Part shown: positions 1 to 18,462 of the stretch, one piece after another | Layout of the letters: the number at the start of each line of letters is the position of its first letter | How positions within the stretch are numbered: the first letter of the stretch is position 1 | IMG/VR virus record: IMGVR_UViG_3300047557_002160 | Coordinates: 1 to 21,917 of that record | Length of the DNA: 21,917 nt | Origin: a virus | Direction: 5' to 3' (one strand) | Notes under the pieces: model-generated | Databases searched by the model: none | The model's input: only the letters and a program-made list of their open reading frames with translations | What the model was told of the DNA's origin: nothing | Program-made: the position numbers and the translations under genes

Positions 1-1
1 G

Positions 2-1534
2 GCTAAGATGGCTGAGAAATCTGCCGTCAAAGTGGCATTTAGAGGAATAGCTGCTGCGGCGGGTCCTCTTGGTTGGATTGCTTTAATTATTCTCACTTTA
101 TGGGATGGATTAACTGATGCGTGGGATACATGGCAATCTACTGGAAGTTTGTATGAAACAATCAAAGCAGGTATTGCTGGACTTGTTGACTCACTTACAT
201 TCGGTTTATTCGATAAAGATACGGCTAAAAAAGTAATTGATGGAACTGTGGATTTCGTAAAAAACTTTCCTGAAAGATTATCAAACTTCATTAACGATAC
301 ATCAGATCACATTTTTACATTTGTGAATAATGCTATCGATAAAATGATGGAAATGAATCCACTAAAAGAAAAACCTTTAAGTGAGAAAGAACTTGGCAAT
401 ATTGTAGATCAACAGAAAGCAGCAGAAGAAGCAGCAAGGGCGGAAGCAGAGAGACAGAAAAAAGTAGCAGAAAATTTAGCCAAGGCACGTGAAATCATAT
501 TAATGAAAACTGAAGAGCGTGATAGGTTACTGGATGAAGTCGCTGTGTTGGAAGAACAAGCAAGTGGTAAACCATCAGAGACAACTAAAAAACTTCAAGA
601 AAAAAGAGAAGAATTGCGTACATCCGAAAAAGGTTTGGCTGATGCTATTCAGCGTGAACAACAGGCAAAAAAAGAAGCATATGCACCAAAACCCTCTGCG
701 CCAGGCGGTATCCCTCCATCAGCACCGACAAAAGTTTCGGGTCGTGATGCTCTTGTAAAAATTATTGTTAAAGAACTACAAGATGCGGGTATAACAAATC
801 GTTTTGCAATTATTGCGACATTGGCTAACGTGCAGAAAGAAACGGGCTTTAAAAACTTCGAAGAAAATATTCTAGCATACAAAAACACACCAAACGATAG
901 AATTCGTCAAGTGTTTACAACTAGAGTCAAAAATTTCTCTGATGCAGAGTTGCACGAAATAAAAAAGGACCCATATAAATTTGCTGAAGTCATTTATGGC
1001 AAAAATAATCCCATTGGTAAAGGCATGGGTAACACCGCTGAAGGTGATGGTTTCAAATATATCGGTCGTGGTTTTATTCAGTTAACCGGTAAAAACAACT
1101 ATGCTTTATATGGAAAATTAGCTGGTGTAGACTTAGTAAACAATCCAACACAGTTACTTGATCCTATTGTCGCTGCAAAAGTGACAGCACAATTTATTCT
1201 TAAAGCAGCAGGCAGTAAAGTTAATTCATTTACTTCTCAATCAGAAGCCAATCGTGCAATTACCCAAGCAATTGGTGGTAAGGCTCTCAATCTAGACAAA
1301 GGTATTGGTGCTGAAATTCTAGCCAAGGTTGACAAATATTCATCAGACTTTAATGGTGTTGAGTTATCAGCAACAAGCAAAGAAGTATCACAGGGGCAAA
1401 GAGAACAACTTAAACCTAAAGATGCTGATGTGGTTAATGTATCTCAAACAAATAATACAAAGAGTTATGATACAAAAACCGTAGCACCAAGGAAAAGTGA
1501 CTCTAACGAAGTAATGACGGCAAGAGTAGCATGA
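2..1534 (+). CDS. Virion-associated GH19 (chitinase/muramidase-like) protein, probably 5'-partial
   Basis: The frame is open to the left edge. The ATG at 8 is only the first in-window Met, has no visible ribosome site, and the paralogue at 1531 has about 120 extra N-terminal residues, so the true start is probably outside. Numbering from that Met: a hydrophobic segment (about 17-32); a scaffold motif around 64-79 (FGLFDKD..KKVIDG); a charged coiled coil rich in Ala/Glu/Lys (about 133-225); a Pro-rich linker; then a GH19 domain (about 244-445) with the probable catalytic Glu278 in QKETGF and the family signature GFKYIGRGFIQLTGKNNY (349-365). A short Asn/Thr-rich tail follows. GH19 enzymes cut chitin or the glycan strands of peptidoglycan; in a phage virion this would open the cell wall during DNA entry (inference). 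Its stop overlaps the next start (ATGA), so the pair is translationally coupled. Domain call strong, structural role less certain. Confidence 0.8.
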   Translation, partial: AKMAEKSAVKVAFRGIAAAAGPLGWIALIILTLWDGLTDAWDTWQSTGSLYETIKAGIAGLVDSLTFGLFDKDTAKKVIDGTVDFVKNFPERLSNFINDTSDHIFTFVNNAIDKMMEMNPLKEKPLSEKELGNIVDQQKAAEEAARAEAERQKKVAENLAKAREIILMKTEERDRLLDEVAVLEEQASGKPSETTKKLQEKREELRTSEKGLADAIQREQQAKKEAYAPKPSAPGGIPPSAPTKVSGRDALVKIIVKELQDAGITNRFAIIATLANVQKETGFKNFEENILAYKNTPNDRIRQVFTTRVKNFSDAELHEIKKDPYKFAEVIYGKNNPIGKGMGNTAEGDGFKYIGRGFIQLTGKNNYALYGKLAGVDLVNNPTQLLDPIVAAKVTAQFILKAAGSKVNSFTSQSEANRAITQAIGGKALNLDKGIGAEILAKVDKYSSDFNGVELSATSKEVSQGQREQLKPKDADVVNVSQTNNTKSYDTKTVAPRKSDSNEVMTARVA

Positions 1535-3228
1535 TAAGAGAAATATTAGGTAAATCCATTTCAAATAAACTGTTTGGTTTATCGAAACAGGATAAAGAAA
1601 AAGAAGAGCAAAGAAAAAATACTCTTCTTGGTGTTTCTGCACTCAAAATAATAGCCAAAAACATGCTCGTTCTTCCCCGCATGGGTAGAGACTTGAATGC
1701 ATCGGCAAAAGGCTTTAGTAAATTTTTTGCAAACGAAACAGGTGAAAAACCTGCAAAAGAAAGTTTGTTGAGCAAACTAGCACCACTCAAAGATCAAGTT
1801 ACACAAGTAAAACTAAAAGAGCCGAAAGAAAAAAGAGAAAAAAAAGAAAAGAAACGCAAGTCATTGCTTGAAATAATCTTTAAGCCATTGATTACAGCGG
1901 CTACTCTTTTATTTACAGTCTTTATCTTCAATAAAGATTTGGTACTTGAAGTTTTGGAAATGTATGGTGGCGTTGAAGGCATTATTGGTTCGGCACTAGA
2001 TTCACTCTATTCTTCAATCACTGGATTTTTCTCATCGTTTAATTTTGGGGAAATTGTGACGGATGAGATGTCAACTTTTATTGAGTTCATTTCTTTTGGA
2101 TTAATCACAAAAGATGATGCAACCAAAGTCTTAGAAGGTATTGGCACTTTCATCAAACCAGTAACAGACCGAATAGGTTCATTTATTGGCGGTATTGCAG
2201 ATTGGGTAAAAGAAAAACTTATGTCTTTTGGTCGTTCACTCGACAAAGGACTTGGTGTAGAAACGGCAGGTGTTAAAGAAGAAAGAAGAAAAGCACTCGA
2301 AGAAGACCCATACGCAAATGCAGTAGAAACAATCAAGGCACTTGATGAAGATATTTCTCTACTCAAATGTAGAGTCGTTTCACTTAAAGAGTATCTTGAA
2401 AATAAAAAGGAATATGAAAAAGAAAAAGCGGAAGGTCGTGCGGTAAGAGAAGCACCTACTCCACCTCCAGTAAATTTACCAGTAAAACGTGTTTCAGAAA
2501 AATCCATATTTTCTACTGCACCACTAGCAACACCCATCAAAGGAACTCCTAGTGATGTACCATCCGGTCAAATTGTAACTAAAGCAGATGGACCATTAGA
2601 TAGTCTTACAAAAAAAGCGGATCCTAATGTAGACACATCCAAATTTAATCCTGAGTTTCAGCGCCGCCTTGAATTAATGGCAACAGCATTCAAACAAGAA
2701 ACAGGTAAGATGTTGCTTATTACTTCTGGTTATCGTAGCAATGAAAAACAAAAAGAACTATATGATGCAGACTTAGCAAAAAACAATGGCAAACCAAGCG
2801 GCAAAGTAGCACAACCAATGGCACCTTTAGGGCAAGGTAAAGGTAGTGTTCACATGAAAGGTCTTGGTATCGACATTAACAGTAAAGGTGATTCTGGTTT
2901 AAATGTTCTTGCGGGTAGTAGAGACAAGCCGACTGGTTGGTTAGAAAAATTCGGACTGATTCGTAACGTTGAAGGTGAAGATTGGCACGTTACCATTGGC
3001 GGCGCACCACCAACTCCTGATGATAAAGAAGTACCTGATAAAAAAGGTAATGCAGTTGATGTTGCTACTGGTAAAGTTGTGCAAGGTGCTGATGTAGGTA
3101 AATCGTCAAACGAAATTGCAGCAGAACAACGTCAACAATCCAAACCAAAGAATCCTACAGTTATAAATGCTGGTATAACAAACAACAACACTGTCATTAG
3201 AGAAGAAAAGATTCTCAAACCGGCATAA
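1531..3228 (+). CDS. Virion-associated protein with C-terminal M15 (VanY-like) peptidase
   Basis: 565 residues. The N-terminus has LPRMGRDLN (48-56), a pattern I recall from large virion proteins of marine T4-like phages. Next come a Lys/Glu-rich stretch (about 96-112), a hydrophobic segment (116-134), amphipathic helices, and a second copy of the scaffold motif seen in the preceding gene (188-203, FGLITKDDATKVLEG). After a coiled coil (250-305) and Pro-rich linker lies an M15 metallopeptidase domain (about 370-490): SGYRS at 399-403, zinc ligands His441 and Asp448 in HMKGLGID, and EDWH with Glu483 and zinc ligand His486. M15 enzymes cleave peptidoglycan cross-bridges. The C-terminal tail (525-552) resembles that of the upstream GH19 protein. 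The two would cut glycan and peptide bonds respectively, probably from the same virion location. It starts at an ATGA overlap and is the last plus-strand gene here. Confidence 0.85.
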   Translation: MIREILGKSISNKLFGLSKQDKEKEEQRKNTLLGVSALKIIAKNMLVLPRMGRDLNASAKGFSKFFANETGEKPAKESLLSKLAPLKDQVTQVKLKEPKEKREKKEKKRKSLLEIIFKPLITAATLLFTVFIFNKDLVLEVLEMYGGVEGIIGSALDSLYSSITGFFSSFNFGEIVTDEMSTFIEFISFGLITKDDATKVLEGIGTFIKPVTDRIGSFIGGIADWVKEKLMSFGRSLDKGLGVETAGVKEERRKALEEDPYANAVETIKALDEDISLLKCRVVSLKEYLENKKEYEKEKAEGRAVREAPTPPPVNLPVKRVSEKSIFSTAPLATPIKGTPSDVPSGQIVTKADGPLDSLTKKADPNVDTSKFNPEFQRRLELMATAFKQETGKMLLITSGYRSNEKQKELYDADLAKNNGKPSGKVAQPMAPLGQGKGSVHMKGLGIDINSKGDSGLNVLAGSRDKPTGWLEKFGLIRNVEGEDWHVTIGGAPPTPDDKEVPDKKGNAVDVATGKVVQGADVGKSSNEIAAEQRQQSKPKNPTVINAGITNNNTVIREEKILKPA

Positions 3229-3251
3229 AAAAACGCCACCCGAAGGTGGCG
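3227..3251 (-). terminator. Rho-independent terminator with UUCG loop, downstream of gene 32
   Basis: Read on the minus strand, a 7-bp perfect stem (CGCCACC / GGTGGCG) with a TTCG tetraloop is followed directly by seven T. The plus strand has A residues before the stem and no T-run after it, so the terminator acts on the leftward transcript that ends with gene 32. It sits between convergent genes. Confidence 0.9.
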
Positions 3252-3278
3252 CCGCAGTTGATTAAGATAAAGGAGGAT

Positions 3279-4133
3279 TTAATCTTCTGCTAGAGACTTA
3301 AAGTAATCAAGTTCTTCATCATCTAAATCAGGTGAAGTCTTTGGTGTAAAGTCTTCAGCCTTAGTCTTTGATACTGGTGCAGCACCACTCAGACCCAAAA
3401 CCTTGTCTAGTTTAGACTTCAGTTCATCATATGACTTGAAGTGTTTAGGATCAAGAAACTCTTTGAGTGAGTGTTCTTTTTTCCACAATGCTTCAAGTTT
3501 AGCATCATCACCATCAAGCAAAGGTGAAGATTTTTCAAATTCAGACTTGTCATAGTTACGATAGCCTTCAACTTGACGAATCTTTAGTTTGAAGTTTGCA
3601 CCTTCCCAGAAATCAAAAGGATTAATTGGCTTCTCATCTTCGAACTGAGGATTCATAGCCTCAGTAATTTTGTCGAAGATTTTTTTGCCAAATTTATACA
3701 ACCTGACTTGACCTTCATTATCTGGATTTTTAGGATCAGAAACGACATAAATGTTTGCAATATAAAACAAACGGCGTTTCTGTTTACGTGCAATTTCTTT
3801 GTTCGCTTCAATACCAGAATTCCACAACACAGAGTTGTACTCTGATACTGGATCTTTCTGATTCAAAGTAGTCAAAGAGTTTTCAATGTACCAGCCGCCT
3901 GGACCTTGAAAGCCATGATCAAATAAACGAACCCAAGGAAGTGCTTCATCACCATCTGCTGCTGGTCCTGGCAGAAAACGAATTACTGCCATGCCATTGC
4001 CTGCTTTGTCTACTTCTGGCTGCCAAAAACGATCATCGCCTTTAGAACCTTCTGTGGGGGTATTGATTGATTCAACCGCTTTGGTGAGTTTGTCGAACGA
4101 ATTGCGGTTGCTTTTAAGTTTGGAAAAATCCAT
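3279..4133 (-). CDS. 32: Single-stranded DNA-binding protein, T4 gp32 family
   Basis: 284 residues, close to T4 gp32 (301). It coats single-stranded DNA at the replication fork and organises helicase loading and recombination. Visible features: basic N-terminus; the core signature DKAGNGMAVIRFLP (42-55); the HGF..GGWYIEN region (73-85); FGKKIFDKI and FWEGANFKLKIRQVEGYRNYDKSEF in the OB-fold core; and an acidic C-terminal tail (about 260-284) like the protein-interaction tail of gp32. The T4 zinc ligands are largely missing: His73 is kept, but the three Cys positions read Ser86, Asp94 and Ser97, and the protein has no Cys at all. The same loss is, as I recall, usual in cyanophage gp32. The ribosome site GAGGT lies just upstream of the ATG. 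A strong promoter lies about 60 bp upstream and a terminator downstream, so the gene can be expressed alone. Confidence 0.97.
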   Translation of the reverse strand: MDFSKLKSNRNSFDKLTKAVESINTPTEGSKGDDRFWQPEVDKAGNGMAVIRFLPGPAADGDEALPWVRLFDHGFQGPGGWYIENSLTTLNQKDPVSEYNSVLWNSGIEANKEIARKQKRRLFYIANIYVVSDPKNPDNEGQVRLYKFGKKIFDKITEAMNPQFEDEKPINPFDFWEGANFKLKIRQVEGYRNYDKSEFEKSSPLLDGDDAKLEALWKKEHSLKEFLDPKHFKSYDELKSKLDKVLGLSGAAPVSKTKAEDFTPKTSPDLDDEELDYFKSLAED

Positions 4134-4158
4134 ATATTACCTCGTATAAGTTAGTATG

Positions 4159-4701
4159 TTAAATTGTATGTGCATCTTGTCCACATGATTCATTATATAC
4201 TTTTATATATGTGTCGTCAAGTACAGACTGCACAGTTTTTATCGTTTTAGCCGTGTCTTTGTGAAGAATGCCTATGCCGCCTGCCATATTAAAATCATCA
4301 ATGACATCTTGAGTATCATCAATGAGTATAATATCAGATTTGGCATAGTTTGCTTTCAAATGACGACCAGGTACGATATTGGCTGTAAAGTCAATGTGGT
4401 GCCTTTTCAACCAAACCTTTTTCTGCCGCTTCACCTCTTCATGATGCATACGGCCACCAGAAGAAGAAAGTATCTCAATCGGTATGTCAAGTGTAAGTAT
4501 AAACTTGAGTAGTTCTTTGCCACCTGGATACCATTCAAGTGTTTCAAAGTTATTGCCATCTACAAAACGATTCCAGTTATCATCGTGTTTCTCACCACGT
4601 TCACGGCTGCTTGCCGCTTTTTGCTTAAAAATTTCTTTATACCGAGCATTGAAGTCTGATAGTACACCATCCATATCAAGATATATTTTCTGTATTCGCA
4701 T
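4159..4701 (-). CDS. HAD-superfamily 5'(3')-deoxyribonucleotidase-like protein
   Basis: 180 residues. HAD motif I is DMDGVLSD with nucleophile Asp9 and acid/base Asp11; motif II is the Ser-rich ILSSSGG (78-83); a Lys (116 or 121) fits motif III; IDDT (127-130) is motif IV. The layout fits the small NT5C-type 5'-nucleotidases, which dephosphorylate deoxynucleoside monophosphates, so a role in nucleotide pool control during phage replication is likely; the exact substrate cannot be read from sequence. The start has AAGGA about 6 nt upstream, inside the end of gene 59, and the two genes overlap by 26 bp. In T4, gene 59 is followed directly by gene 32, so this gene looks like an insertion into an otherwise conserved order. 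Its last codons also carry the gene 32 promoter. Confidence 0.85.
   Translation of the reverse strand: MRIQKIYLDMDGVLSDFNARYKEIFKQKAASSRERGEKHDDNWNRFVDGNNFETLEWYPGGKELLKFILTLDIPIEILSSSGGRMHHEEVKRQKKVWLKRHHIDFTANIVPGRHLKANYAKSDIILIDDTQDVIDDFNMAGGIGILHKDTAKTIKTVQSVLDDTYIKVYNESCGQDAHTI
4192..4220 (-). promoter_or_regulatory. Strong sigma70-type promoter for gene 32
   Basis: Minus strand: -35 TTGACG (4220-4215), exactly 17 bp (4214-4198), -10 TATAAT (4197-4192). It lies inside the 3' end of the HAD nucleotidase gene, predicting a start near 4185 and a leader of about 50 nt before the gene 32 ATG. Five of six and six of six consensus positions match. With the terminator at 3227 this defines a gene 32 monocistron. 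Confidence 0.7.
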
Positions 4702-5287
4702 CGTATTCCTTTTTGAGTATGAGTTTGTATTTTGTTGGTTCGAATGGTATGAACGGTGTGTACTTTTTTATTTTTCGGCTGATGTTTGGATAATGAATAG
4801 TGTCAGCAATTTTTGTATCCCATGACGGTAAAAAGTTGAGTAGTTTGTTTAATATGCAAATTGATTCAAGTGAAATTTCATCATGTAAAAGTTTCTGTAG
4901 CAATTCTGGATACTCACCGTCATGTACTATTAATGAATCATTTGGGCTCTCCTGACTCATTAGTGCTTCAATGTCGTTCGTAAAGGTATATGTCAAAGAT
5001 TGTATTACTTTCTGACGTTTGCGATATTCGGCACTGGATTCTTCCATAAGAAGGTTGCCCACCCAAACATTAGGGTCGTGAACGAGATTAGCAACAATAA
5101 AATCACGACCTTGTTCTTCATTGGTAAATCTGCGACTCAATTTATAGAAGTGCCATTTATCTTTACGATTCTCAAATGCACCAATACTTGTGCTTACTTT
5201 ACCATTATACTTAAAGTAATCGTAAGAATCTGAATTGAAGTGGAGTTTAAGAGAAGTGTATAAACAGAATGCTTCATAGCCCGTCAT
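4676..5287 (-). CDS. 59: Helicase loader, T4 gp59 family
   Basis: 203 residues against 217 in T4. gp59 binds fork DNA and gp32 and loads the gp41 replicative helicase. The N-terminal half matches the family layout: GYEAFCLYTSLKLHF (3-17), YDYFKYNGKV, then the motif NRKDKWHFYKLSRRF and FIVANLVHDPNVWVG, each with clear counterparts in T4 gp59 (YDVIKYN, KRRDKYFFQKLSEKY, FISNLVANQDAWIG). The C-terminal half is more diverged but keeps the ISLESICILNKLLNF helix that parallels T4 ISFETFILLDSFLNI. The start overlaps the gene 33 stop by 4 bp (ATGA), so translation is coupled. The order 33-59-32 supports the call. Confidence 0.92.
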   Translation of the reverse strand: MTGYEAFCLYTSLKLHFNSDSYDYFKYNGKVSTSIGAFENRKDKWHFYKLSRRFTNEEQGRDFIVANLVHDPNVWVGNLLMEESSAEYRKRQKVIQSLTYTFTNDIEALMSQESPNDSLIVHDGEYPELLQKLLHDEISLESICILNKLLNFLPSWDTKIADTIHYPNISRKIKKYTPFIPFEPTKYKLILKKEYDANTENIS

Positions 5288-5508
5288 ATCGGTAAACGAT
5301 TGCCTTTCACTTTTAACATATTCAAACGCTCTGCTTGTTCGTGTATTTTTGCTTTTAGATTTGGTGTAATGAGTGAAGCAGCAACCTCCAACTCCAAACC
5401 AGTTTCTTTACAGTGTTCGGTGATAGCCTCAAGATATGTGTAATCTGTATTGGCCACCAGTCGTTCTATCTGCAAAGAAAACTTCAGCATTTCATCTTTT
5501 GTCGGCAT
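5284..5508 (-). CDS. 33: Late-promoter transcription co-activator, T4 gp33 family
   Basis: About 74 residues from the ATG at 5508, which begins 1 nt after the upstream stop. A GTG at 5532 would add eight residues and overlap the upstream gene by 23 bp; it has AGGA at a long spacing, so the start is not certain. T4 gp33 (112 aa) binds the RNA polymerase beta flap and couples sliding-clamp-driven late transcription to polymerase carrying gp55. The matching stretch is TYLEAITEHCKETGLELE followed by LITPNLKAKIHEQAERLNML, parallel to T4 SYLEATTAFLEENSIPE and FIPSGIIEKIQSEAIDENLL. The protein is shorter at the N-terminus than in T4. Position directly before gene 59 matches T4. TATAAATA late promoters in this window are consistent with a gp33/gp55-type late system. 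Confidence 0.85.
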   Translation of the reverse strand: MPTKDEMLKFSLQIERLVANTDYTYLEAITEHCKETGLELEVAASLITPNLKAKIHEQAERLNMLKVKGNRLPI

Positions 5509-5509
5509 T

Positions 5510-5968
5510 TTATCTGTACGACATCTTTGCACCGCCTAATGTTCCTGGCATATCAGTTGACCATGAATACATTTGTTCTGTGGTCAAAGGCGCCATTGTA
5601 GGATATTGATTCAATGAAGACAAATCAATTGGCTTTATAGCGGCTATGTCGGCTGTAGTTAATGCTTGAATAGGTTCAGTTTTTAAACCAAATGGCCAGT
5701 TGTTATTTGGAATATTCTCAAAACTAAACTTTGGTTGTTCTGATATCTTTTGCTGTCCTGACTGTATGGCTTCACCGTATTCAAAATCATCAAAAGGTAC
5801 AACTTGAATCTGACCATCAATTTCGTAACCACAACCTCTTAGAAAATCCCTAAATTGATTGAGAATGTCATCAAGGAATAATTCACTGAAATTCATTTCA
5901 AGACTTTTGTTGCCATCACCCGAATCAAATCGAATTGTAAAATTGTGGTTATCAACATCAAAATTCAT
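5510..5968 (-). CDS. Conserved phage hypothetical protein
   Basis: 152 residues, not recognised as an enzyme. The N-terminal half holds an amphipathic helix FLDDILNQFRDFLRGCGYEIDG (31-52), a pattern common in small T4-like phage proteins. The C-terminal half is low in structure (Pro, Asn, Gln, Thr) and ends TLGGAKMSYR. No signal peptide or membrane segment. It has a good ribosome site (AAGGGAGA) upstream of the ATG and is followed within 1-2 nt by gene 33. In T4 the dsbA gene occupies this slot, but I see no similarity that would justify that name. Confidence 0.7.
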   Translation of the reverse strand: MNFDVDNHNFTIRFDSGDGNKSLEMNFSELFLDDILNQFRDFLRGCGYEIDGQIQVVPFDDFEYGEAIQSGQQKISEQPKFSFENIPNNNWPFGLKTEPIQALTTADIAAIKPIDLSSLNQYPTMAPLTTEQMYSWSTDMPGTLGGAKMSYR

Positions 5969-5983
5969 AATATATCTCCCTTT

Positions 5984-6202
5984 TTATTTACGATTAGCAG
6001 CATGTGCAATACAAACAATATCATCACTTTTGGCATATGAACACCGTACGGTTAGTGGATCAATGCCTTTTGCAATAGCGTTTTCAATATTTGCTGCCAT
6101 TAATTTACGGTCATTTAAACCGTAGATACACACCGCAGCAACGATTGAAAGTAAAACCAAAGTAACTGAAACTGTGGTTATACTACTCAATCCTTTCTCC
6201 AT
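5984..6202 (-). CDS. Small single-pass membrane protein
   Basis: 72 residues if translation starts at the ATG at 6202, chosen because GGAG lies 6 nt upstream of it. An upstream ATG at 6235 (ATGA overlap with the SleB-like gene) would add 11 residues but has no clear ribosome site; the ATG at 6205 is too close to the GGAG. Residues about 7-28 form one strongly hydrophobic segment (TTVSVTLVLLSIVAAVCIYG); the rest is probably exposed and contains ENAIAKGIDPLTVRCSYA with two Cys. Similar small membrane proteins with an AIAKGIDP motif occur, as I recall, in several marine phages. Function unknown; the N-in or N-out topology cannot be decided from sequence. Confidence 0.75.
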   Translation of the reverse strand: MEKGLSSITTVSVTLVLLSIVAAVCIYGLNDRKLMAANIENAIAKGIDPLTVRCSYAKSDDIVCIAHAANRK

Positions 6203-6231
6203 CATCTTCTCCTTTTTGCTTGATAAAATAC

Positions 6232-6783
6232 TCATGAATTTTTCTTTGCCTTATTATAGAATAAATGTCTGCCTATTTGAGCAGTGTATCTCATATTATT
6301 CCAACCTGGTTTTACATAGTCTGCATGAAAGAACAAAGCACCTTTTGTTGGATCTTTAAACTTCTCAGTGTAAAGATAGAACGCCAATGCTAACTCAGTT
6401 ACACTATTATACAACGAATTGCTCTCCAGTGTCAAGAGTCCTTTTCTCATCATATCCTTAGGACGATTTTCACATACCCATGAGAATTGGCAAACAGTGC
6501 CAACTTTTTGTTTCACAACGCCACAATAGGTATCTGGAAACACGCCAGACTGCATTCGGTTGTGTGTAACAAATGCTACAGCAAGCTGACCTAATCTTGG
6601 TTCCAATCCTGCTTCGAAATACATGTTCTGTGCTAGGCATTCTACTTCAGCCCTTGCATCGGGTGATAAATCTTGTAGTTGAACCCTAGGCTCAATCGGT
6701 ACTTTTATTTGTGCTGCTGCATGTCCAATGTAAATAACAAATGCTGCAAATATACTACAAAGTAATAGTGTGATGTAACGCAT
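6232..6783 (-). CDS. Secreted SleB-type cell-wall hydrolase
   Basis: 183 residues. Signal peptide: basic residue, hydrophobic core (3-19), AHAAAQ-type cleavage near residue 24. The mature part fits the Hydrolase_2/SleB family: ECLAQNMYFEAGLEP (48-62) with likely catalytic Glu57, GQLAVAFVTHNRM, FPDTYCGVV, then CQFSWVC (98-104). SleB-type enzymes are lytic transglycosylases or amidases that cut peptidoglycan glycan strands. The signal peptide places it in the periplasm, so it could act as a secreted endolysin not needing a classical holin, or in superinfection/cell-wall remodelling. It stands apart from the tail hydrolases at 2-3228. Good ribosome site (AGGAGA) 4-5 nt before the ATG. The middle of the gene contains a perfect sigma70 promoter sequence directed at the downstream genes. 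Confidence 0.88.
   Translation of the reverse strand: MRYITLLLCSIFAAFVIYIGHAAAQIKVPIEPRVQLQDLSPDARAEVECLAQNMYFEAGLEPRLGQLAVAFVTHNRMQSGVFPDTYCGVVKQKVGTVCQFSWVCENRPKDMMRKGLLTLESNSLYNSVTELALAFYLYTEKFKDPTKGALFFHADYVKPGWNNMRYTAQIGRHLFYNKAKKNS
6406..6435 (-). promoter_or_regulatory. Consensus sigma70 promoter inside the SleB-like gene
   Basis: Minus strand: TTGACA (6435-6430), 18 bp (6429-6412), TATAAT (6411-6406). Both hexamers are perfect. It would start transcription near 6399 and read into the membrane protein, the hypothetical, gene 33, gene 59 and the nucleotidase. It lies in coding sequence, so chance is possible, but two perfect hexamers at permitted spacing are rare. Confidence 0.55.
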
Positions 6784-6802
6784 ACTTTCTCCTATAAGTT
6801 AG

Positions 6803-6822
6803 GAGTGTGCCGAAGCACACTC
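6803..6822 (-). other. UUCG-tetraloop RNA hairpin between genes
   Basis: Minus strand: perfect 8-bp stem GAGTGTGC / GCACACTC around a TTCG loop. It lies after the stop of the 6830-7102 gene and about 20 nt before the SleB-like start. There is no T-run after it, so it is more likely an mRNA-stabilising or processing element than a terminator. Confidence 0.7.
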
Positions 6823-6829
6823 GGTCCCA

Positions 6830-7102
6830 TCAGGCAGACTTTTTGCTCTGTGATTTTTCTGCTGTAATGTTCGAAACGAACCCATTCAAGGACATTGCCT
6901 TGGTAATGATATCGTTTTCTGTGGGATAAGTTGGAAAGGCTGGATGTTCAGGTATCGCTTGTCCGTTTAGTTTAGCGGACTCTACCTTTACGTGCCATTC
7001 ATTGGTTAGGCGATCTTTGTTAGAGTGGTACTCTTCCAACAATAGTTCTTTCGCCATTTTTAGAAGTTCAAGACGAATCTCGAACGGTGTCAGATTACTC
7101 AT
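6830..7102 (-). CDS. Conserved phage hypothetical protein
   Basis: 90 residues, soluble, mostly helical by composition. The N-terminus TPFEIRLELLKMAKELLLEEYH (5-26) is a charged amphipathic helix, followed by a Pro-rich segment IPEHPAFPTYPTENDIITKAM and a Lys/Ser-rich tail. I recall similarly built small proteins (FEIRLELLKMAKD) in other T4-like marine phages, with no known function. Ribosome site AGGAG lies 6-7 nt upstream. The 77-nt gap upstream holds an inverted repeat; downstream is the UUCG hairpin. Confidence 0.75.
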   Translation of the reverse strand: MSNLTPFEIRLELLKMAKELLLEEYHSNKDRLTNEWHVKVESAKLNGQAIPEHPAFPTYPTENDIITKAMSLNGFVSNITAEKSQSKKSA

Positions 7103-7127
7103 TTGCTTCTCCTGTGTTGTGTGTGTT

Positions 7128-7155
7128 TACTGGCGAAGTGTGTGTGATGCCAGTA
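7128..7155 (-). repeat. Inverted repeat in the leader of the 6830-7102 gene
   Basis: TACTGGC (7128-7134) and GCCAGTA (7149-7155) form a perfect 7-bp stem with a 14-nt loop rich in CA/GT, located about 26 nt upstream of the ATG and after the preceding stop. No T-run follows on either strand. It could be an mRNA structure or an operator; nothing more can be said. Confidence 0.45.
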
Positions 7156-7179
7156 CATATATTTAGTTATTTTGTGCGT

Positions 7180-7848
7180 TCAATCCCACAATCCACGGTA
7201 GTATTTGCCAAAAAGGCGTAAACCATTGTCAATGCGGTCATACACTTTTCTTATACCATCATAATCACAAACATATGTGTGATTTGGTCCGTGTTCCATT
7301 CGTTTGAGGTTTGAATGTTCATCATCAGGCACAAACACCATATCAATTTCACCAGAACTATATTCGTTTTCCCATGAATCATCAACAAGATGCTCGAAGG
7401 CAAAAATCATTTCATCAAGCACCCAATTCCATCGTGCATGAATGTCTGCTTCACCTTCTTTGATTGTGTGTTCTTTATAAAAATCAAATGTAGATTGTGA
7501 ATCATAATCTTCAGTTGTTGTCGCACGAAGATGTTCTGGCACATCTTCCAAATCAACAAAAGGTGAACCGTGTTTTGTTTCTTTGAGTTTCTTCAACATC
7601 GGAAGAATGATTGGTGAAAGTGTGTGATCCATATTCCACACATCCCAGTAATCAATCTTGATATAGTTGATTCGTGGGTGAACAAAGTCAAGAAACTTCA
7701 TCCATGCTACACAGAATGGCTCAAGAATATTTTTGAGGCGTTCGATGATTGGTTCGTCATAATCAATTTCACGCCAAAAGAAAACTTTCTCCAGTATTGT
7801 GTATGGAGAAACCCAATGACTACGATAGTTTGACAAATAGATTTTCAT
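7180..7848 (-). CDS. Conserved T4-like phage hypothetical protein
   Basis: 222 residues, acidic, rich in Trp, Tyr, Asp and His. The opening KIYLSNYRSHWVSPYTILEKVFFW and the central HPRINYIKIDYWDVWNMDHTL..IILPMLKKLKETKHGSP, WNWVLDEMIFAFEHL and GLRLFGKYYRGLWD blocks match a family I recall as widespread in T4-like marine phages and cyanophages; its function is unknown to me. No membrane segment. Two features of its expression are odd: there is no Shine-Dalgarno sequence before the ATG, and the T-run of the tmRNA terminator ends 3 nt before the start codon. It must therefore depend on read-through or on an unseen promoter. Confidence 0.8.
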   Translation of the reverse strand: MKIYLSNYRSHWVSPYTILEKVFFWREIDYDEPIIERLKNILEPFCVAWMKFLDFVHPRINYIKIDYWDVWNMDHTLSPIILPMLKKLKETKHGSPFVDLEDVPEHLRATTTEDYDSQSTFDFYKEHTIKEGEADIHARWNWVLDEMIFAFEHLVDDSWENEYSSGEIDMVFVPDDEHSNLKRMEHGPNHTYVCDYDGIRKVYDRIDNGLRLFGKYYRGLWD

Positions 7849-7850
7849 GG

Positions 7851-7899
7851 TAAAAAAATGTTTAGTGGGGGATATTGGTTAATAAGGAATCCCCCTAAA
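7851..7899 (-). terminator. Rho-independent terminator at the end of the tmRNA
   Basis: Minus strand: left arm TTTAGGGGGAT (7899-7889), loop of about 15 nt, right arm ATCCCCC-A-CTAAA (7873-7861, one unpaired base), then CA and seven T (7858-7852). The left arm is also the likely 3' end of the tmRNA coding piece. Confidence 0.75.
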
Positions 7900-8120
7900 C
7901 CCCAACTAGCAATTTAGGCTGCTAGTGCGTAACGCTCATCGTTTGCGTTTACTTGTTTTGCTTGATTTACAGTCATCGCCTACTGTGTTGCCTTCTCCAC
8001 TATCTCACCCTGTCGAAACCATGTCTGGCCCCTCAGAAGCACACAATGTATAATATGCTTTTGGTGGACCAGGTGGGAGTCGAACCCACGTCCAGAATGC
8101 CTTCACTTTGAAGGGATTAC
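7886..8120 (-). ncRNA. ssrA: Circularly permuted two-piece tmRNA
   Basis: tmRNA rescues stalled ribosomes and tags the nascent protein for proteolysis. On the minus strand the acceptor piece comes first (about 8118-8062): T-arm GTGGG-TTCGACT-CCCAC, then CTGGTCC-A-CCA ending at 8062. A 30-nt spacer with a 7-bp hairpin (8060-8037) follows, then the coding piece from 8031: GGGCCAG, then ACATGGTTTCGACAGGG, the universal tmRNA 5' signature. GGGCCAG pairs all 7 positions with CTGGTCC, and pair 3 is G-U, the alanyl-tRNA synthetase identity element. A 5-bp hairpin (7986-7969) precedes the tag. The tag stop codon sits in the loop of a perfect 7-bp hairpin (7926-7905), as in tmRNA helix 5. GGGGGATT near 7890 can pair with AATCCCTT of the acceptor piece. 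Ends of the mature pieces are approximate. Confidence 0.93.
7914..7946 (-). other. tmRNA tag reading frame, peptide ANDERYALAA
   Basis: GCA (7946) through TAA (7914) encodes ANDERYALAA, one residue different from the E. coli tag ANDENYALAA and ending in the ALAA degron read by ClpXP/ClpAP. The resume codon could instead be the GCA at 7961, giving a 15-residue tag AKQVNANDERYALAA; sequence alone does not settle this. The preference for the shorter tag rests on its length and identity with the proteobacterial form. Confidence 0.85.
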
Positions 8121-8127
8121 AACAATT

Positions 8128-8295
8128 CTATTCTTTACTTTCAACTAGAACACATCGTGCAGTAATGTTATCTCTACCTCTCACTAACAATATTGCTGCT
8201 TCAACACACTCTTCAAATCTGTCGTATGTTTTCCATCTCATTTCTACTGGTTCACTACCTGCCATAATTACTGTTACAAATAGTGCATAGAACAT
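8128..8295 (-). CDS. Small conserved-looking protein, 55 residues
   Basis: 55 codons from ATG 8295 to TAG 8128, starting 13 nt after the halogenase stop and ending just before the tmRNA acceptor piece. The sequence begins MFYALFVTVIMAGSEPVEMR and continues with WKTYDRFEECVEAAILLVRGR, a balanced composition with a hydrophobic strand, an amphipathic helix and a final strand, as in a compact alpha/beta fold. It is not recognised. There is no strong ribosome site (only GAG about 9 nt upstream). Support is the clean fit between neighbours and protein-like composition. A plus-strand frame across the same bases is judged a shadow. Confidence 0.65.
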   Translation of the reverse strand: MFYALFVTVIMAGSEPVEMRWKTYDRFEECVEAAILLVRGRDNITARCVLVESKE

Positions 8296-8308
8296 TGAAT
8301 TACTCGTT

Positions 8309-9481
8309 TTATTTAATTAAAGCACCTAATTCATCACGAATTTGTAGGTTATCTATATTCATCATAAAACTTCTTAATGACCAAGTGGCAATTCCATCTT
8401 TACCTTTTATATTAAAACTATCATTATAACTTTTACTTTTTAAAGATTGTTTTACAGCTTGTGCAAAGGTACTATTGGTTTGAAAATCTTTTTCTAGTTT
8501 TTCTTTTCCTAATTTTTGAGCATATCTCCAAAATTCACTATCATACGCCGAACCAGAAAAATAGTGCATTGCTATCATCGACTCTATTTCATCCACGATA
8601 GAATCATAAAAGAAATTTGCTTTTTGTAAATCATACTCTTTAAGTTTCCACAAACTTATAGAAATTCTATTCAAAATAATGGCAACTGATGTTGATGTTG
8701 CTTCTAACGGTTCTAAAAAATAACTAGCGTTGCCATTATAAAAAACTCTATCGGTAAAATTATTTTTTCTTGAGTAATTATTAAATTTTAATTTTCTTTC
8801 TAACGCAGGTTTTAAACCGAATTCATCTAAGATGTCCTGTACGTCATTTTTTATATCTTCTTCTGTGCAAAATTTATCATTGTAAATATATCCAATCGCA
8901 CATCTATTCTTCAAAGGTATACCAAATACCCAACCATATTTTTTCGCAAAGGTTAAAGTATATAAAAACTTAGGTAATTCCCAAGGACATTGAAATATCA
9001 TTGCAGAATTTACTGGTATTGCATCATGAGTATTATAATCATCAAAACTTTTTGGAGAACCAGTAGATACTGTCACATAATCGCTATCAATTTTATTCGG
9101 ATCAATAATATTTGATTCTATGATTTTGACACGTGAATTATTTTTCAATCTTTCAAACACATAGTCTTGAAATTGTAAGGCATTAAAGTGTATGCCATAA
9201 TCACCCAAAGGAAATGTGTGTACGTATTCTTTTCCTTTGCCCCAATTCCTTTTCCAAACACCAAGTTTTGGTGTGGAATTAATTTTATCCATGTCAACAC
9301 TATCTACACCTAAAGTATCGGATATGTTTCTTGGAAATATAAGAGTTGTGCCTTCTCCAACTGGTGCAGTTTCAATGTTTGGGTCATATATCCAATCAAT
9401 CTCCCAATCAGTGTATCTCAAATAGTGTGCAACTGTTAAACAACCTACAGTTCCTTTTCCCACAACGGCGATTTTTTTCAT
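8309..9481 (-). CDS. Flavin-dependent halogenase, tryptophan-halogenase family
   Basis: 390 residues. Such enzymes use reduced FAD, oxygen and halide to make hypohalous acid that halogenates a substrate through an active-site Lys. Visible: dinucleotide-binding GKGTVG (8-13); VGEGTT (41-46); candidate catalytic Lys72 in STPKLGVW; GWVFGIPL (183-190), the counterpart of the family WxWxIP motif that separates the flavin and substrate sites, but with Val and Phe changes; and FLEPLEATS (255-263), the counterpart of the F(I/L)xPLEST flavin motif. Viral members are known: VirX1 from cyanophage Syn10 iodinates diverse substrates. Substrate and halide are unknown here. By eye the gene is more AT-rich than its neighbours, consistent with recent transfer. 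No flavin reductase is nearby, so a host reductase would be needed. There is no clear Shine-Dalgarno; the gene starts 6 nt after the preceding stop. Confidence 0.88.
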   Translation of the reverse strand: MKKIAVVGKGTVGCLTVAHYLRYTDWEIDWIYDPNIETAPVGEGTTLIFPRNISDTLGVDSVDMDKINSTPKLGVWKRNWGKGKEYVHTFPLGDYGIHFNALQFQDYVFERLKNNSRVKIIESNIIDPNKIDSDYVTVSTGSPKSFDDYNTHDAIPVNSAMIFQCPWELPKFLYTLTFAKKYGWVFGIPLKNRCAIGYIYNDKFCTEEDIKNDVQDILDEFGLKPALERKLKFNNYSRKNNFTDRVFYNGNASYFLEPLEATSTSVAIILNRISISLWKLKEYDLQKANFFYDSIVDEIESMIAMHYFSGSAYDSEFWRYAQKLGKEKLEKDFQTNSTFAQAVKQSLKSKSYNDSFNIKGKDGIATWSLRSFMMNIDNLQIRDELGALIK

Positions 9482-10197: not shown

Positions 10198-10863
10198 TCA
10201 AGCATATTTATTAATATACTCCATTAATGGTTGCCGATAGTCATGAATCTGTTTCTCAAAAATCTGTGCTGGTCCTTCTTCGGTAGCAATCACCACTACA
10301 ATATCATCAATCCAGATGCCAGTTCGTTCAGCAAACATCAGAGCATATGCTGTACATTGCATAAAGTAGTTCTGAATATACTCTTCATCTTTCTGCTTGG
10401 TGGAAGTTTTGAAGTCAATAACCGACAACTTACCGTCCCATTCAGCAATCAAGTCAACACGACCAGCAACTCTGAGTTTATCGGAATATAATGCCTGTTC
10501 TTGTGCATAGATTTTACCAACGCTTCGATCAAGGTCTGGCTTGATTTTGAAGAATAGTTCTTTCATATCGGGCATCAGCATTTGCATCTTCATTTCGGAT
10601 ATCTCATTATTGAGATAATCTTCACAAATCTTATGCACTTTTGTACCACGATTTGATGCCTTGCGTGATATTTGATTTGCACGTTCTTCACCAACAGCCT
10701 GACGCCATTCATAAATGGCTTGCTTGCCATAATGCGAAAGTACCGTAGTGATAGACTTATACTGGTTACCCTCAGGCGTAGTATAAATCCTACCACTATC
10801 GGTAGTTTCGGCGTTTAAATCAAATTGGAGTTGAGGTAAACTTACATGTTCAAATATTCGCAT
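10198..10863 (-). CDS. PD-(D/E)XK superfamily exonuclease (RecB/Cas4/MGME1-like)
   Basis: 221 residues. The nuclease core is visible: RGTKVHKICEDYL (72-84) with His77, a usual RecB-family position; GRVDLIAEW (134-142) with metal-binding Asp137; VIDFKTS (148-154) with Asp150 and catalytic Lys152; and QCTAYALMF (169-177), the QxxxY motif that marks RecB-like and Cas4-like nucleases. The N-terminal part contains a YTTPEGNQYKSITTVLS segment typical of phage members, which resemble mitochondrial MGME1. It would process DNA ends, probably single-stranded, in replication, recombination or host DNA degradation. No iron-sulphur Cys cluster of the Cas4 or AddB kind is present. The start overlaps the stop of the preceding small gene (TAATG). 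Confidence 0.85.
   Translation of the reverse strand: MRIFEHVSLPQLQFDLNAETTDSGRIYTTPEGNQYKSITTVLSHYGKQAIYEWRQAVGEERANQISRKASNRGTKVHKICEDYLNNEISEMKMQMLMPDMKELFFKIKPDLDRSVGKIYAQEQALYSDKLRVAGRVDLIAEWDGKLSVIDFKTSTKQKDEEYIQNYFMQCTAYALMFAERTGIWIDDIVVVIATEEGPAQIFEKQIHDYRQPLMEYINKYA
10205..10212 (-). promoter_or_regulatory. Possible T4-type late promoter (AATAAATA)
   Basis: AATAAATA on the minus strand, 7 of 8 matches to the T4 late -10 element TATAAATA, lies in the last codons of the exonuclease gene and 22 nt before the start of the basic protein gene, a workable distance. A single 8-mer in AT-rich DNA is weak evidence by itself. Confidence 0.35.
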
Positions 10864-13873: not shown

Positions 13874-15556
13874 TTAAGGTACACCATATGCAATAACCAC
13901 AATACCAGAACCACCTGTTTGACCTGTACCATTTGGATCATGTCCACCACCACCACCGCCACTATTTACAAGTGCATTTGGTTTACCAGAAGGTGCTGAA
14001 AATAAAATTCCGCCTGGCGCACCACCAAATTGCGGATGTGCAACTCCAAAATTAGCCGGGTGGCTAGGTGTTACTAGTCCTCCTCCGCCGCCGGCATAAC
14101 CAACATTTGAACCGGTTATTGTGGAAAATATCCCTATTCCACCATTACCACCCGATGCTGTTGCAGGACCTAAAGGGGCTGGTGCTGAGGCATCAATACC
14201 TATGCTTCCAGCGCCGCCGCCACCACCAGAACCACTGCCGCCAGGGAAGAAGTAGTTTCCGGCACCACCATTATTACCTTCTGAAGGACTGTAACCACCT
14301 TCATTTCCAGGACCACCCGTTCTAGCACCACCCCAACCATCGCAAGCACCGCCACCACCAGAACCACCTGCTTTTCCAGAATTATCCGGTGAATTGACGC
14401 CACCTTGACCACCACCAGTTGACCAAAATCCGCCTAATCCAGAAGGAGTGATAAAGAAACCACTGTTGGAGCCCTTTGTATTAACAGCACCTCCACCACC
14501 AACAGCAACGCTATATGTTGTGCCGGGAGTTACAGGATATCCAGTGCCCTGACGGAAACCACCTGCACCGGCTGCACCATTAGTGCCTCCGCCGCCACCC
14601 GCAACAACCAAATAATCGATAGACGATACACCAGTGGGAACTGTAAATGAAGATGCGCTTGTAAATGTGACTCTTTGAGTGGTTGAATATTTAATAACTA
14701 TAACACCAGAACCTCCACCACTACCAGCCGTGCCCGCTGGACCTTCACCACCACCTCCACCGCCGCCTTTATTTGCAGGAGGAGTTGTTGCAGTCAACGG
14801 TGTCGATGGATGTGCAAGAGCGCCATTAGCGCCGCCATAATCAGTTTGACCGTTACCACCAGCAGCATATACAATTGTGGGCGCCCATACATAAGCGCCT
14901 CCACCGCCAGCATAACCTACGTTTGCACCTGATATAGAAGAATATACTCCTATGCCACCATTACCACCCCAAGGTGCTGCTGGTCTCATTCCATTAAATC
15001 CAGTGCCACCAGCGCCGCCACCACCGCCGCCACCTACGTTAGTGCCGCCGGGATAACCACCACCAGAACCACCATTATTTCCTTGTCCCGGAGTTCCTAA
15101 ACCTCCACCATAAGGACCACCATAACCAGTAAAAGCACCACCACCACCAGAACCACCAGATGTACCTTGACCACCTGGTGAATTATAACCACCACGGCCA
15201 CCACCCGTAGACCATGTTCCTCCAGCCCCAGTTGAAGTGACAAACAATCCACTATTTGATCCTTCTAACGCAAACGCACCGCCAGCACCAATGGAAATTG
15301 TGTATTGTGTGCCTGGAGTTACTGGAAAGGAAGAAGATGTTCTAAAACCACCAGCGCCGCCGCCACCGTAGGCACCTCCACCACCACCGGCAACAATCAA
15401 ATACTCAACGACCGTGACACCATTAGGTGCAGTCCAATTAGATGAAGAATTAAAAATAGTGACAACTGCATTTGCTCTGCTAATCAGTCCACTGCGTCTG
15501 GTCAATCCATAAGAACCAATTGAGCCTGCACCTAAAGAAGCAAGAATAGGAGGCAT
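13874..15556 (-). CDS. Glycine-rich tail-fibre adhesin with two tandem modules
   Basis: 560 residues, glycine-dominated. After a short N-terminal piece (1-30) come two copies of a module of about 260 residues: 31-290 and 295-560. Each begins with a strand pair ending in EYLIVAGGGGG or DYLVVAGGGGG, then GGAGGFR, PVTPGTQY/TTY, GSNSGLFVT/GFFIT, WSTGGG(R/Q)GG.NSP, long Gly runs, NVGYAGGGG, and a final GVIVIKY or GIVVIAY strand. This fits Gly_rich-type receptor-binding domains. The best known comparison is the polyglycine sandwich of phage S16 gp38-type adhesins, which gives distal tip specificity. It probably recognises the host surface. It follows the fibre gene at 15560 by 3 nt, under the same late promoter. 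The two modules differ in the Gly-loop region, as expected for receptor-binding loops. Confidence 0.8.
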   Translation of the reverse strand: MPPILASLGAGSIGSYGLTRRSGLISRANAVVTIFNSSSNWTAPNGVTVVEYLIVAGGGGGAYGGGGAGGFRTSSSFPVTPGTQYTISIGAGGAFALEGSNSGLFVTSTGAGGTWSTGGGRGGYNSPGGQGTSGGSGGGGAFTGYGGPYGGGLGTPGQGNNGGSGGGYPGGTNVGGGGGGGAGGTGFNGMRPAAPWGGNGGIGVYSSISGANVGYAGGGGAYVWAPTIVYAAGGNGQTDYGGANGALAHPSTPLTATTPPANKGGGGGGGEGPAGTAGSGGGSGVIVIKYSTTQRVTFTSASSFTVPTGVSSIDYLVVAGGGGGTNGAAGAGGFRQGTGYPVTPGTTYSVAVGGGGAVNTKGSNSGFFITPSGLGGFWSTGGGQGGVNSPDNSGKAGGSGGGGACDGWGGARTGGPGNEGGYSPSEGNNGGAGNYFFPGGSGSGGGGGAGSIGIDASAPAPLGPATASGGNGGIGIFSTITGSNVGYAGGGGGLVTPSHPANFGVAHPQFGGAPGGILFSAPSGKPNALVNSGGGGGGHDPNGTGQTGGSGIVVIAYGVP

Positions 15557-16503: not shown

Positions 16504-17037
16504 CTAAAAGATAATATCTGCAATACCATATTCTACCAAATCTTCTGCGGATAGCCAAACGTCAGTTGGTCGCAGAAACTTGGATTTAACATCCTTGACT
16601 GACAGTTTTGAACAGTCAGCAAGAATCTTTGCCATCTTGTGATGATACCTGTCACACTCTTTAGCATAAGCCCGCATGTCATGATATTTGCCACCCATTT
16701 CATCATTGAATTGGTGAATCATGATTGTCGTGTTCTTACCTACTGCACGATAACCTTTTTCACCAGCAGCAAATATCACAAATGCGGCACTCATTAAATT
16801 GCCATATGCAAGTGTACGAACAGGTACACCCACACCTAGCATTAAGTCAGCAAGCCCTATCGCATCGCCTAAATTGCCACCTTCAGAGTTAATGTGCAGT
16901 GTCAGTGGCTTTTCAATCTTATTGAACTTGGCATAAAGCAACCAGCGTGATGCTGCCTCAATATTTGTTGGCTCAATGCTACCAGACAAAAAATGGGCAT
17001 AGTGTTCAAATTGTATTTCGTTCTCTTTGTCGCTCAT
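16504..17037 (-). CDS. clpP: ClpP-like serine protease
   Basis: 177 residues, slightly shorter than bacterial ClpP (about 200). The catalytic triad is complete: Ser83 in AYGNLMSAAF, His108 in TTIMIHQF, Asp159 in RPTDVWLSAEDLVEYGIAD. The oxyanion region INSEGGNLGDAIGLADLM (50-66) is conserved. ClpP forms barrel peptidases fed by ClpX/ClpA or works alone on peptides. Roles in phages include taking over host proteolysis or acting as a prohead protease; here it lies between glycan genes and small genes, not in a head module, so the former is more likely. A tmRNA tag of the ClpXP type is encoded about 9 kb away. There is no good Shine-Dalgarno and a 32-bp overlap with galE, suggesting coupling. 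Confidence 0.9.
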   Translation of the reverse strand: MSDKENEIQFEHYAHFLSGSIEPTNIEAASRWLLYAKFNKIEKPLTLHINSEGGNLGDAIGLADLMLGVGVPVRTLAYGNLMSAAFVIFAAGEKGYRAVGKNTTIMIHQFNDEMGGKYHDMRAYAKECDRYHHKMAKILADCSKLSVKDVKSKFLRPTDVWLSAEDLVEYGIADIIF

Positions 17038-17974
17038 ACCAATTATATGCCGTTCTCAAAATAGATTTCAGATTGTGTTTGGGTTTGAATTTCAGATATT
17101 CTTTGGCCAAGTCAATATTGGCCACAAGTTTTGATGGATCGCCTTCTCTTCTTTTGCCAAATTCGTAGTTAATGTCAAGTTGAAGTTCGGACTTTGCAGT
17201 GTTAATAACCTGCAAGATAGAATAACCTTTGCCTATTCCTAAATTGAACAGCGTGGGTTGATTGTCGTATTTTGTTTGAAGATAGTTGTCTGCTAACACA
17301 TGAGCATCTGCTACATCGGAAACATGCACAAAATCACGAATACATGTACCATCAGGTGTATTATAATCGTTACCATTTACAATAAACTCCTTTTTATTAT
17401 TTAGACTTTCGAACATTAGCGGAATCAAATGTGTTTCGGGTTCATGCATCTCACCCATCTCACCATCTGGATCGGCACCTGAAAGATTGAAAAATCTAAA
17501 AATAATATGATTTGCTTTTGAATCACGAATCGCACACTCAGCAGCATACTTACTGTTTGCATACGGATTGTTATTTCCTACTTCGGCTTTTTCGGAGAGT
17601 GTCGTAAACTGAGGACTATAAAGACCGGCAGTAGAAGAATAAACAATATTCCTAACATTGTAACACCTCATAAAATTTAGTAGATTGCATGTACCGCCAA
17701 CATTGACATCCCAAAACAGTTCGGGAGATGTAACCGACTCACCAACTTCAATACGACCAGCAAGATGAAAAACGATATCGGGTGTCCAGTTTACAAATAC
17801 TCTAGACAAGTCTTGATATGTCCGAATATCACCAGGACAATAAACATCCCAGTAAATATCGCTCTGCGGTGTTTTGATATCAAAGCAGATTGTAAAATAA
17901 CCTGCTTTTCTTAATGCTTTTGCTAAATGTGAACCAAGATAACCAGAACCACCCGTTACCAGTGCTTTTCTCAT
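17006..17974 (-). CDS. galE: UDP-glucose 4-epimerase-like (GalE, extended SDR)
   Basis: 322 residues. Rossmann NAD motif TGGSGYLG (7-14), DIVFHLAG (66-73), Ser/Thr at SSTAGLYS (113-120), YxxxK with Tyr138 and Lys142 in NPYANSKYAAE, and RFFNLSGADPDGEMGE, the GalE-type RYFNxxGA region that binds the uridine sugar. RDFVHVSDVADAH and GxGKGYSILQVI are also typical. It interconverts UDP-glucose and UDP-galactose or related sugars. It starts in an ATGA overlap with the RmlC-like gene and ends inside the ClpP start, so it belongs to the same transcript. The precise sugar may differ, since family members shift specificity easily. Confidence 0.9.
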   Translation of the reverse strand: MRKALVTGGSGYLGSHLAKALRKAGYFTICFDIKTPQSDIYWDVYCPGDIRTYQDLSRVFVNWTPDIVFHLAGRIEVGESVTSPELFWDVNVGGTCNLLNFMRCYNVRNIVYSSTAGLYSPQFTTLSEKAEVGNNNPYANSKYAAECAIRDSKANHIIFRFFNLSGADPDGEMGEMHEPETHLIPLMFESLNNKKEFIVNGNDYNTPDGTCIRDFVHVSDVADAHVLADNYLQTKYDNQPTLFNLGIGKGYSILQVINTAKSELQLDINYEFGKRREGDPSKLVANIDLAKEYLKFKPKHNLKSILRTAYNWYERQRERNTI

Positions 17975-18462
17975 CTATCTCTTTCCGATAAAATAGGATT
18001 CTTGATTGGCCAAAAAATATTGAAACGTTCGTCGTTCCACTTCACAGTATATTGTGATGCACGATCATAATATTGATCTAGTTTGTAACTGAATACACAT
18101 TGCTCTGACATTACCAAATGTGCATTACCATGCTTTGGTGGTAACAACACTTGATAACCATTTCTATCAGACAAAGTAAATTCTTGCCATTGACCATATT
18201 GGTCAGAATCTTCATCAAGATTAATTACGATTTGATAGATTGTGCCATGTAAACACGAAACAAGTTTTGTTGTTCTATCGTCGCCATGTATGCCTCGTAA
18301 TGTATGTCGGCGTGATGTTGAAATGCTGTCAAGAATAAAGTTTACACCCAACTGTGCGTAGTTATCTTTGTGCCATGTCTCAATGTTTGTGCCACGATAA
18401 TCTTCATGTATAGTGGGTTTAATTAACTTAACACCTTTTAAGTTCGTATCTTCAATTATCAT
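17971..18462 (-). CDS. RmlC-like sugar 3,5-epimerase (cupin)
   Basis: 163 residues, close to RmlC (about 180). Family marks: EDYRGTNIETWH (20-31), TLRGIHGD (54-61) with likely catalytic His59, the cupin strand KLVSCLHGTIYQIVINL, and PKHGNAHLVMSEQCVFSYK (109-127). RmlC converts dTDP-4-keto-6-deoxyglucose to the rhamnose precursor; viral relatives also act on other 4-keto sugars. No rmlA, B or D was seen in the window, so its substrate would come from the host or from genes outside. It overlaps galE by 4 bp and the DUF2061 gene by 11 bp. Confidence 0.85.
   Translation of the reverse strand: MIIEDTNLKGVKLIKPTIHEDYRGTNIETWHKDNYAQLGVNFILDSISTSRRHTLRGIHGDDRTTKLVSCLHGTIYQIVINLDEDSDQYGQWQEFTLSDRNGYQVLLPPKHGNAHLVMSEQCVFSYKLDQYYDRASQYTVKWNDERFNIFWPIKNPILSERDR

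Follow-up and report, generated by a model that had tools for sequence, protein, structure and literature searches.

A circularly permuted tmRNA gene of predicted betaproteobacterial type in a T4-like phage contig

The window, meaning the whole stretch of DNA analysed here, is a viral contig of 21,917 bp from IMG/VR, which is classed as linear and is probably a fragment. Its gene set is T4-like. At about 7852-8124 on the minus strand lies a complete circularly permuted (two-piece) tmRNA gene, flanked by a tryptophan-halogenase gene and a phrog_11543 gene. The surrounding features are as follows.

3279-4133: gp32, nearest to Pelagibacter phage HTVC008M and cyanophages (~57-65% identity)
4676-5287: gp59 helicase loader
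5284-5532: gp33-type late transcription regulator
8128..8295, minus strand: ORF of 55 aa without a family match, ending just ahead of 8124, where the pairing of the tmRNA begins
10198-10863: PDDEXK exonuclease
20263-21111: RNase H/5'-3' exonuclease

A long glycine-rich repetitive protein, phrog_2295 (function not known), is encoded at 13874-15556 and has partial matches in close relatives. The region 17006-19822 contains an apparent sugar-nucleotide cluster of epimerase-like, glycosyltransferase-like and cytidylyltransferase-like genes, of which only the cytidylyltransferase was checked by domain search. This cluster may modify the virion or the host surface.

ARAGORN calls a single permuted tmRNA at c[7823,8154]. 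In Rfam, beta_tmRNA (RF01850) matches with 183.3 bits (E 9e-58) over the full 331-position model, and the merged model tmRNA_permuted (RF04321) matches with 153.6 bits (E 5e-31) over its whole length; the gathering cut-offs of 84 and 47, respectively, are exceeded. A preliminary description of this DNA had proposed a phage-encoded circularly permuted two-piece tmRNA and had named a covariance-model search as a check, and both programs bear out the proposal. The range given there was 7886-8120. The gene does lie there, but the first helix starts at 8124, just beyond that range, and the 3' pseudoknot and T-run continue down to about 7852. The parts of the gene, 5' to 3' on the minus strand, are listed below.

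8062..8124, minus: acceptor piece, the tRNA-like 3' domain; helices paired in 100% of alignment cells (15 distinct sequences)
8124-8120 and 8099-8093, minus: 5' strands of helix P2, within the acceptor piece
8089-8073, minus: T arm, within the acceptor piece
8072-8066, minus: acceptor 3' strand, within the acceptor piece
8065-8062, minus: ACCA, with the CCA end at 8062
8032..8061, minus: excised spacer of 30 nt, with a 7-bp hairpin (8060-8054 with 8043-8037)
7914..8031, minus: coding piece, from ARAGORN, Rfam and covariation
8031-8025, minus: acceptor 5' strand, the start of the coding piece
8020-8012, minus: GGUUUCGAC, in the coding piece
8012-8006 and 7990-7986, minus: 3' strands of P2, in the coding piece
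7985-7970, minus: 4-bp hairpin in the coding piece, ahead of the resume codon
7914..7946, minus: tag reading frame, GCA AAC GAT GAG CGT TAC GCA CTA GCA GCC TAA, for ANDERYALAA and stop
7906..7925, minus: 6-bp hairpin CUAGCA/UGCUAG with the stop codon in its loop, kept in the closest relatives
7867..7905, minus: probable 3' pseudoknot, stem 1 7895-7889/7873-7867 and stem 2 7905-7902/7878-7875
7852..7866, minus: 3' flank, in which CUAAAC closes an extended stem and 7 T follow, a possible intrinsic terminator

The acceptor piece with its T arm and CCA thus precedes the coding piece, and the acceptor stem and P2, both supported by covariation, join the two. The acceptor stem has 7 bp, GGGCCAG/CUGGUCC, and includes the invariant alanine identity pair G3-U70. 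The tag reading frame has both a resume codon and a stop. Compared base by base, the CCA end, the spacer hairpin, GGUUUCGAC, the acceptor stem with G3-U70 and the stop codon in a hairpin loop all match the anatomy first described, and the piece ends given there, 8062 and 8031, are correct.

The flank at 7852..7866 was not called in the terminator scan, the loop limit of which it exceeds, and its T-run and stem are not conserved in relatives. No clear sigma-70 or T4-late promoter was found directly upstream of the tmRNA. The T4 late promoter sequence TATAAATA occurs at the chance rate and was rejected as a candidate. The folding energy of the single strand is modestly better than that of shuffled sequences (z -2.0). 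An extra local hairpin in the acceptor piece, CCUUC/GAAGG, showed weak covariation when tested. Neither a glutamine riboswitch nor any other riboswitch near the gene has an Rfam match in the window; a permissive riboswitch scan gave only chance-level matches, all outside the tmRNA.

The resume codon GCA corresponds to 7946-7944 and the stop codon to 7916-7914. The tag ANDERYALAA, already read as such at the outset, differs from the E. coli tag by one residue and is, according to ARAGORN, an exact match to Cupriavidus and Ralstonia. The resume codon had been left between 7946 and 7961 with a supposed shift of 16 nt; the actual spacing is 15 nt. AAAyGC at the lower site (7946) is invariant in the alignment. 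The upstream GC(A/G) lies 14, 15, 16 or 17 nt ahead of the tag start across relatives, and its frame is not kept even in contig L012, with 98-99% identity across the core. Because this distance varies, 7961 is ruled out, and on the alignment the resume codon is settled as 7946. Between the window and four contigs with the same tag, the tag codons show synonymous differences only, and likewise within the ANDAFYGEDRLAA group. The sample is small, and these changes are consistent with translation of the tag.

Some viral two-piece tmRNAs (L010, L059, L046, L004 and others) have unusually long predicted tags of up to 30 residues, such as ANADTFEFGALNFTGNTVGAANEGRFALAA. Close copies of one viral gene are read with either the 8-residue tag ADAELVAA or the 23-residue tag ANAFKPEVTVPMSVFADQELVAA; the two readings may be an artefact of the caller.

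A pattern scan of IMG/VR yielded 62 further contigs with permuted tmRNAs, in each of which ARAGORN also called one. The window and its closest viral relatives, 15 distinct sequences, were aligned. In the named structure, 85.5% of cells are paired versus 72.1% after shuffling, and pairing falls to 40-47% when partners are slid by 1-3 columns. Double-sided changes are seen in 35 of 57 pairs among the 15 distinct viral sequences, and none of 500 shuffles matches the observed pairing or the count of double-sided changes. Helices 1-4 of the tRNA-like domain are paired in all cells. All 15 sequences have G-U as their third acceptor pair, and three neighbouring acceptor pairs covary. The spacer hairpin is paired in 98% of cells with compensatory changes in six of seven pairs; since it covaries, it is a conserved element, and perhaps a processing signal. 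Stem 1 of the pseudoknot shows double-sided changes in 7/7 pairs (79.6% of cells paired), and stem 2 is weaker (58%). The stop hairpin (50.7% of cells) is the same in the closest relatives, and distant ones carry other forms or none. Conservation downstream of the tag, in the stop hairpin and pseudoknot stem 2, does not extend across all relatives. The four other contigs with ANDERYALAA are syntenic with the window at ~91% identity over the gene and its flanks. The covariation, the invariant G3-U70 and the synonymous-only tag changes together indicate that the window tmRNA has very probably been conserved for its function as an RNA.

The other Rfam models stay below their cut-offs: alpha_tmRNA (RF01849) with 49.6 bits against 50, cyano_tmRNA (RF01851) with 41.4 against 70, and the one-piece tmRNA (RF00023) with 27.6 against 47. 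As a positive control for the alpha model, the gene of Methylophilales phage Melnitz scores 106.7 bits with alpha_tmRNA. On these models, the window tmRNA is of the betaproteobacterial type and not of the alphaproteobacterial type. The preliminary description had favoured an alphaproteobacterial donor; the alpha score of 49.6 versus the beta score of 183.3, the Cupriavidus/Ralstonia tag and the Melnitz control speak against it. In the tree, the window groups with viral sequences, adjoining betaproteobacterial ones. The support for the viral clade is 96/90 with the tag columns included. When these columns are left out, the viral group is not resolved and the constrained grouping is not rejected (p-AU 0.62), and the claim is therefore limited to the nearest relatives being viral. 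The beta-type scores, the tag match and the tree together indicate that the donor, if recent, was not alphaproteobacterial.

Betaproteobacterial two-piece tmRNAs share with the window the gene order, the acceptor stem with G-U, P2, the resume region and the tag type; unlike them, the window copy is phage-encoded, and its nearest sequences are other viral copies. Among genomes sampled from the order to which one Burkholderiales MAG belongs, 4 of 150 had the beta type above the cut-off. When two families were then sampled around the positives of that order-level search, it was present in 19 of 151 genomes of one family and 61 of 151 of the other. With 183 bits, the window falls below the majority of the bacterial copies in one family, which reach 336 bits, and is comparable to those in another family of the Burkholderiales (142-169 bits). 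Genomes of 84,980 species were searched with a strict pattern of the viral form, and none matched; a looser viral pattern matched, in bacterial genomes, one Burkholderiales MAG. Phages have probably carried this lineage for some time.

A survey of 2022 found 53 of 133 unique phage tmRNAs to be two-piece, mostly in aquatic phages; the two-piece ssrA of Melnitz was published in the same work, and tmRNA lineages common to hosts and their phages were reported (PMC9004378). The 2025 tmRNA database contains 79 unique phage sequences (PMC11915505). The view of phage tmRNAs as one-piece, on which the preliminary description drew, is outdated given the 53 two-piece sequences, and the window gene therefore adds to a known kind.

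Beta-type permuted tmRNAs, unannotated in the records, are also seen in Pseudomonas phage SM1 (KU245542; L149 1477-1897), Alcaligenes phage vB_Af_QDWS595 (OK149171; L151 1452-1828) and the lake cyanophage Synechococcus phage BUCT-ZZ01 (ON615601; L153 1439-1857). Like the window gene they score above gathering (94-111 bits); unlike it they belong to unrelated phage groups and have longer spacers and different tags. As judged from these matches, the beta-type two-piece tmRNA is shared by unrelated phages, one of which infects P. aeruginosa. The tmRNA of P. aeruginosa itself is one-piece. Because SM1 has a beta-type permuted tmRNA, neither the permuted form nor the subtype should be used for host inference, and the earlier use of the permuted form as a pointer to an alphaproteobacterial donor is not supported.

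Melnitz (MZ577097) resembles the window in that a permuted tmRNA of a T4-like phage lies downstream of a PDDEXK exonuclease and upstream of gp33/gp59/gp32. It differs in being alpha-type, in a glutamine riboswitch at the 3' end where the window has no riboswitch match, in a long spacer and in its tag, ANDNYVPVDYALAA. The order in Melnitz is PDDEXK exonuclease, alpha-type tmRNA, gp33, gp59, thyX and gp32. In the window, L012, L054, L057, L053 and others, it is PDDEXK exonuclease, tmRNA and cell-wall hydrolase, followed by gp33, gp59 and gp32 where the locus extends; the position of the tmRNA between the exonuclease and gp33/gp59/gp32 is kept in several divergent phages. Since the gene orders of Melnitz and the window match, two tmRNA subtypes occupy one interval. 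Either one subtype would have replaced the other, or both would have been gained in a permissive place. No tmRNA was found in positions 1-9000 of Pelagibacter phage HTVC008M, around gp59 and gp32. It can be tentatively suggested, with the balance falling a little short of even, that the genomes of T4-like phages keep a standing slot in which alpha- and beta-type two-piece tmRNAs have been installed separately as ribosome-rescue RNAs, and that the beta type has become a lineage borne by phages, with tag evolution independent of the host tmRNA form.

In the window and L042, the tryptophan-halogenase gene (8309-9481) separates the tmRNA from the gene that follows upstream; L012, L021 and L049 have no such gene at this position. 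By this comparison, its presence or absence is a recent gain or loss.

It is likely that this T4-like phage bears its own functional betaproteobacterial-type two-piece tmRNA, which would serve normal trans-translation with host factors and keep rescue capacity high in infection. Points against this reading are the lack of a clear promoter directly upstream, the modest folding energy and the incomplete conservation downstream of the tag. From the observed gene, structure, conservation, tag and resume codon, the following course of processing, charging, SmpB use, tagging and benefit to the phage can be proposed. In a single transcript, host RNase P would cut at 8031, and the host enzymes that process tRNA 3' ends would generate the CCA terminus at 8062. 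The spacer hairpin would be discarded, and the acceptor stem and helix P2 would hold the two pieces together. Host alanyl-tRNA synthetase would charge the tmRNA via G3-U70. The requirements of trans-translation have been described (PMC3985003). A search of 12 tmRNA-bearing viral records, among them contigs of 146-221 kb that are possibly incomplete, turned up no phage SmpB; host SmpB is therefore presumably used, and together with EF-Tu it would bring the tmRNA to ribosomes stalled on broken mRNA. Translation would resume at GCA 7946, append A-ANDERYALAA and end at 7916-7914, and Clp-type proteases would degrade the tagged fragment. The most likely benefit would be a high rescue capacity while mRNA breaks down in infection.

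The window also encodes a ClpP-like protein (16504-17037), which Pfam assigns to Clp_protease and which can be aligned to solved ClpP across the region of the active site, and ClpP is present in several related phages. A functional tmRNA could then mainly tag host or phage proteins for degradation by the phage ClpP, for amino-acid recycling or timing, and a similar tagging role was proposed by the authors of the Melnitz study (PMC9004378). A joint role of the ClpP-like protein with the tag is possible. However, it is encoded 8 kb from the tmRNA, its best PHROGs are head maturation proteases, and ClpP was not found in some tmRNA-bearing contigs, which are fragments; tagging as the main function is unlikely.

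Slightly less probable still is a decoy, a real tmRNA that competes with and interferes with host trans-translation instead of supporting it. Mycobacteriophage DS6A has a tmRNA-like RNA that lacks a tag and, on expression in E. coli, reportedly inhibits the endogenous tmRNA (PMC11915505), and with no phage SmpB found, the phage RNA would compete for that of the host. A decoy would need neither the intact tag frame, resume signal and stop nor the synonymous-only tag changes of the closest relatives. Another alternative is that a host ssrA gene, whole or as a remnant, was captured recently and has no role in infection. It is conceivable in that phages which integrate into ssrA are known to acquire fragments (PMC9004378) and that Cupriavidus/Ralstonia have the identical tag, but it is largely refuted and very improbable given the intact structural elements, the covariation across phage relatives, the same genomic position in divergent phage contigs, the viral rather than bacterial nearest relatives and the strict viral-form pattern, unmatched among 84,980 species.

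The functional beta-type tmRNA preferred here corrects the lineage assigned to this gene from alpha to beta, and the form of a phage tmRNA is no guide to the host. Beyond the published two-piece phage tmRNAs, the beta type appears in unrelated phages, and alpha-type (Melnitz) and beta-type (window) genes appear at one genomic place. These related genes of phages, alike in the core and different in the tag, would provide a ready comparison set for asking how a phage benefits from having ribosome rescue of its own.
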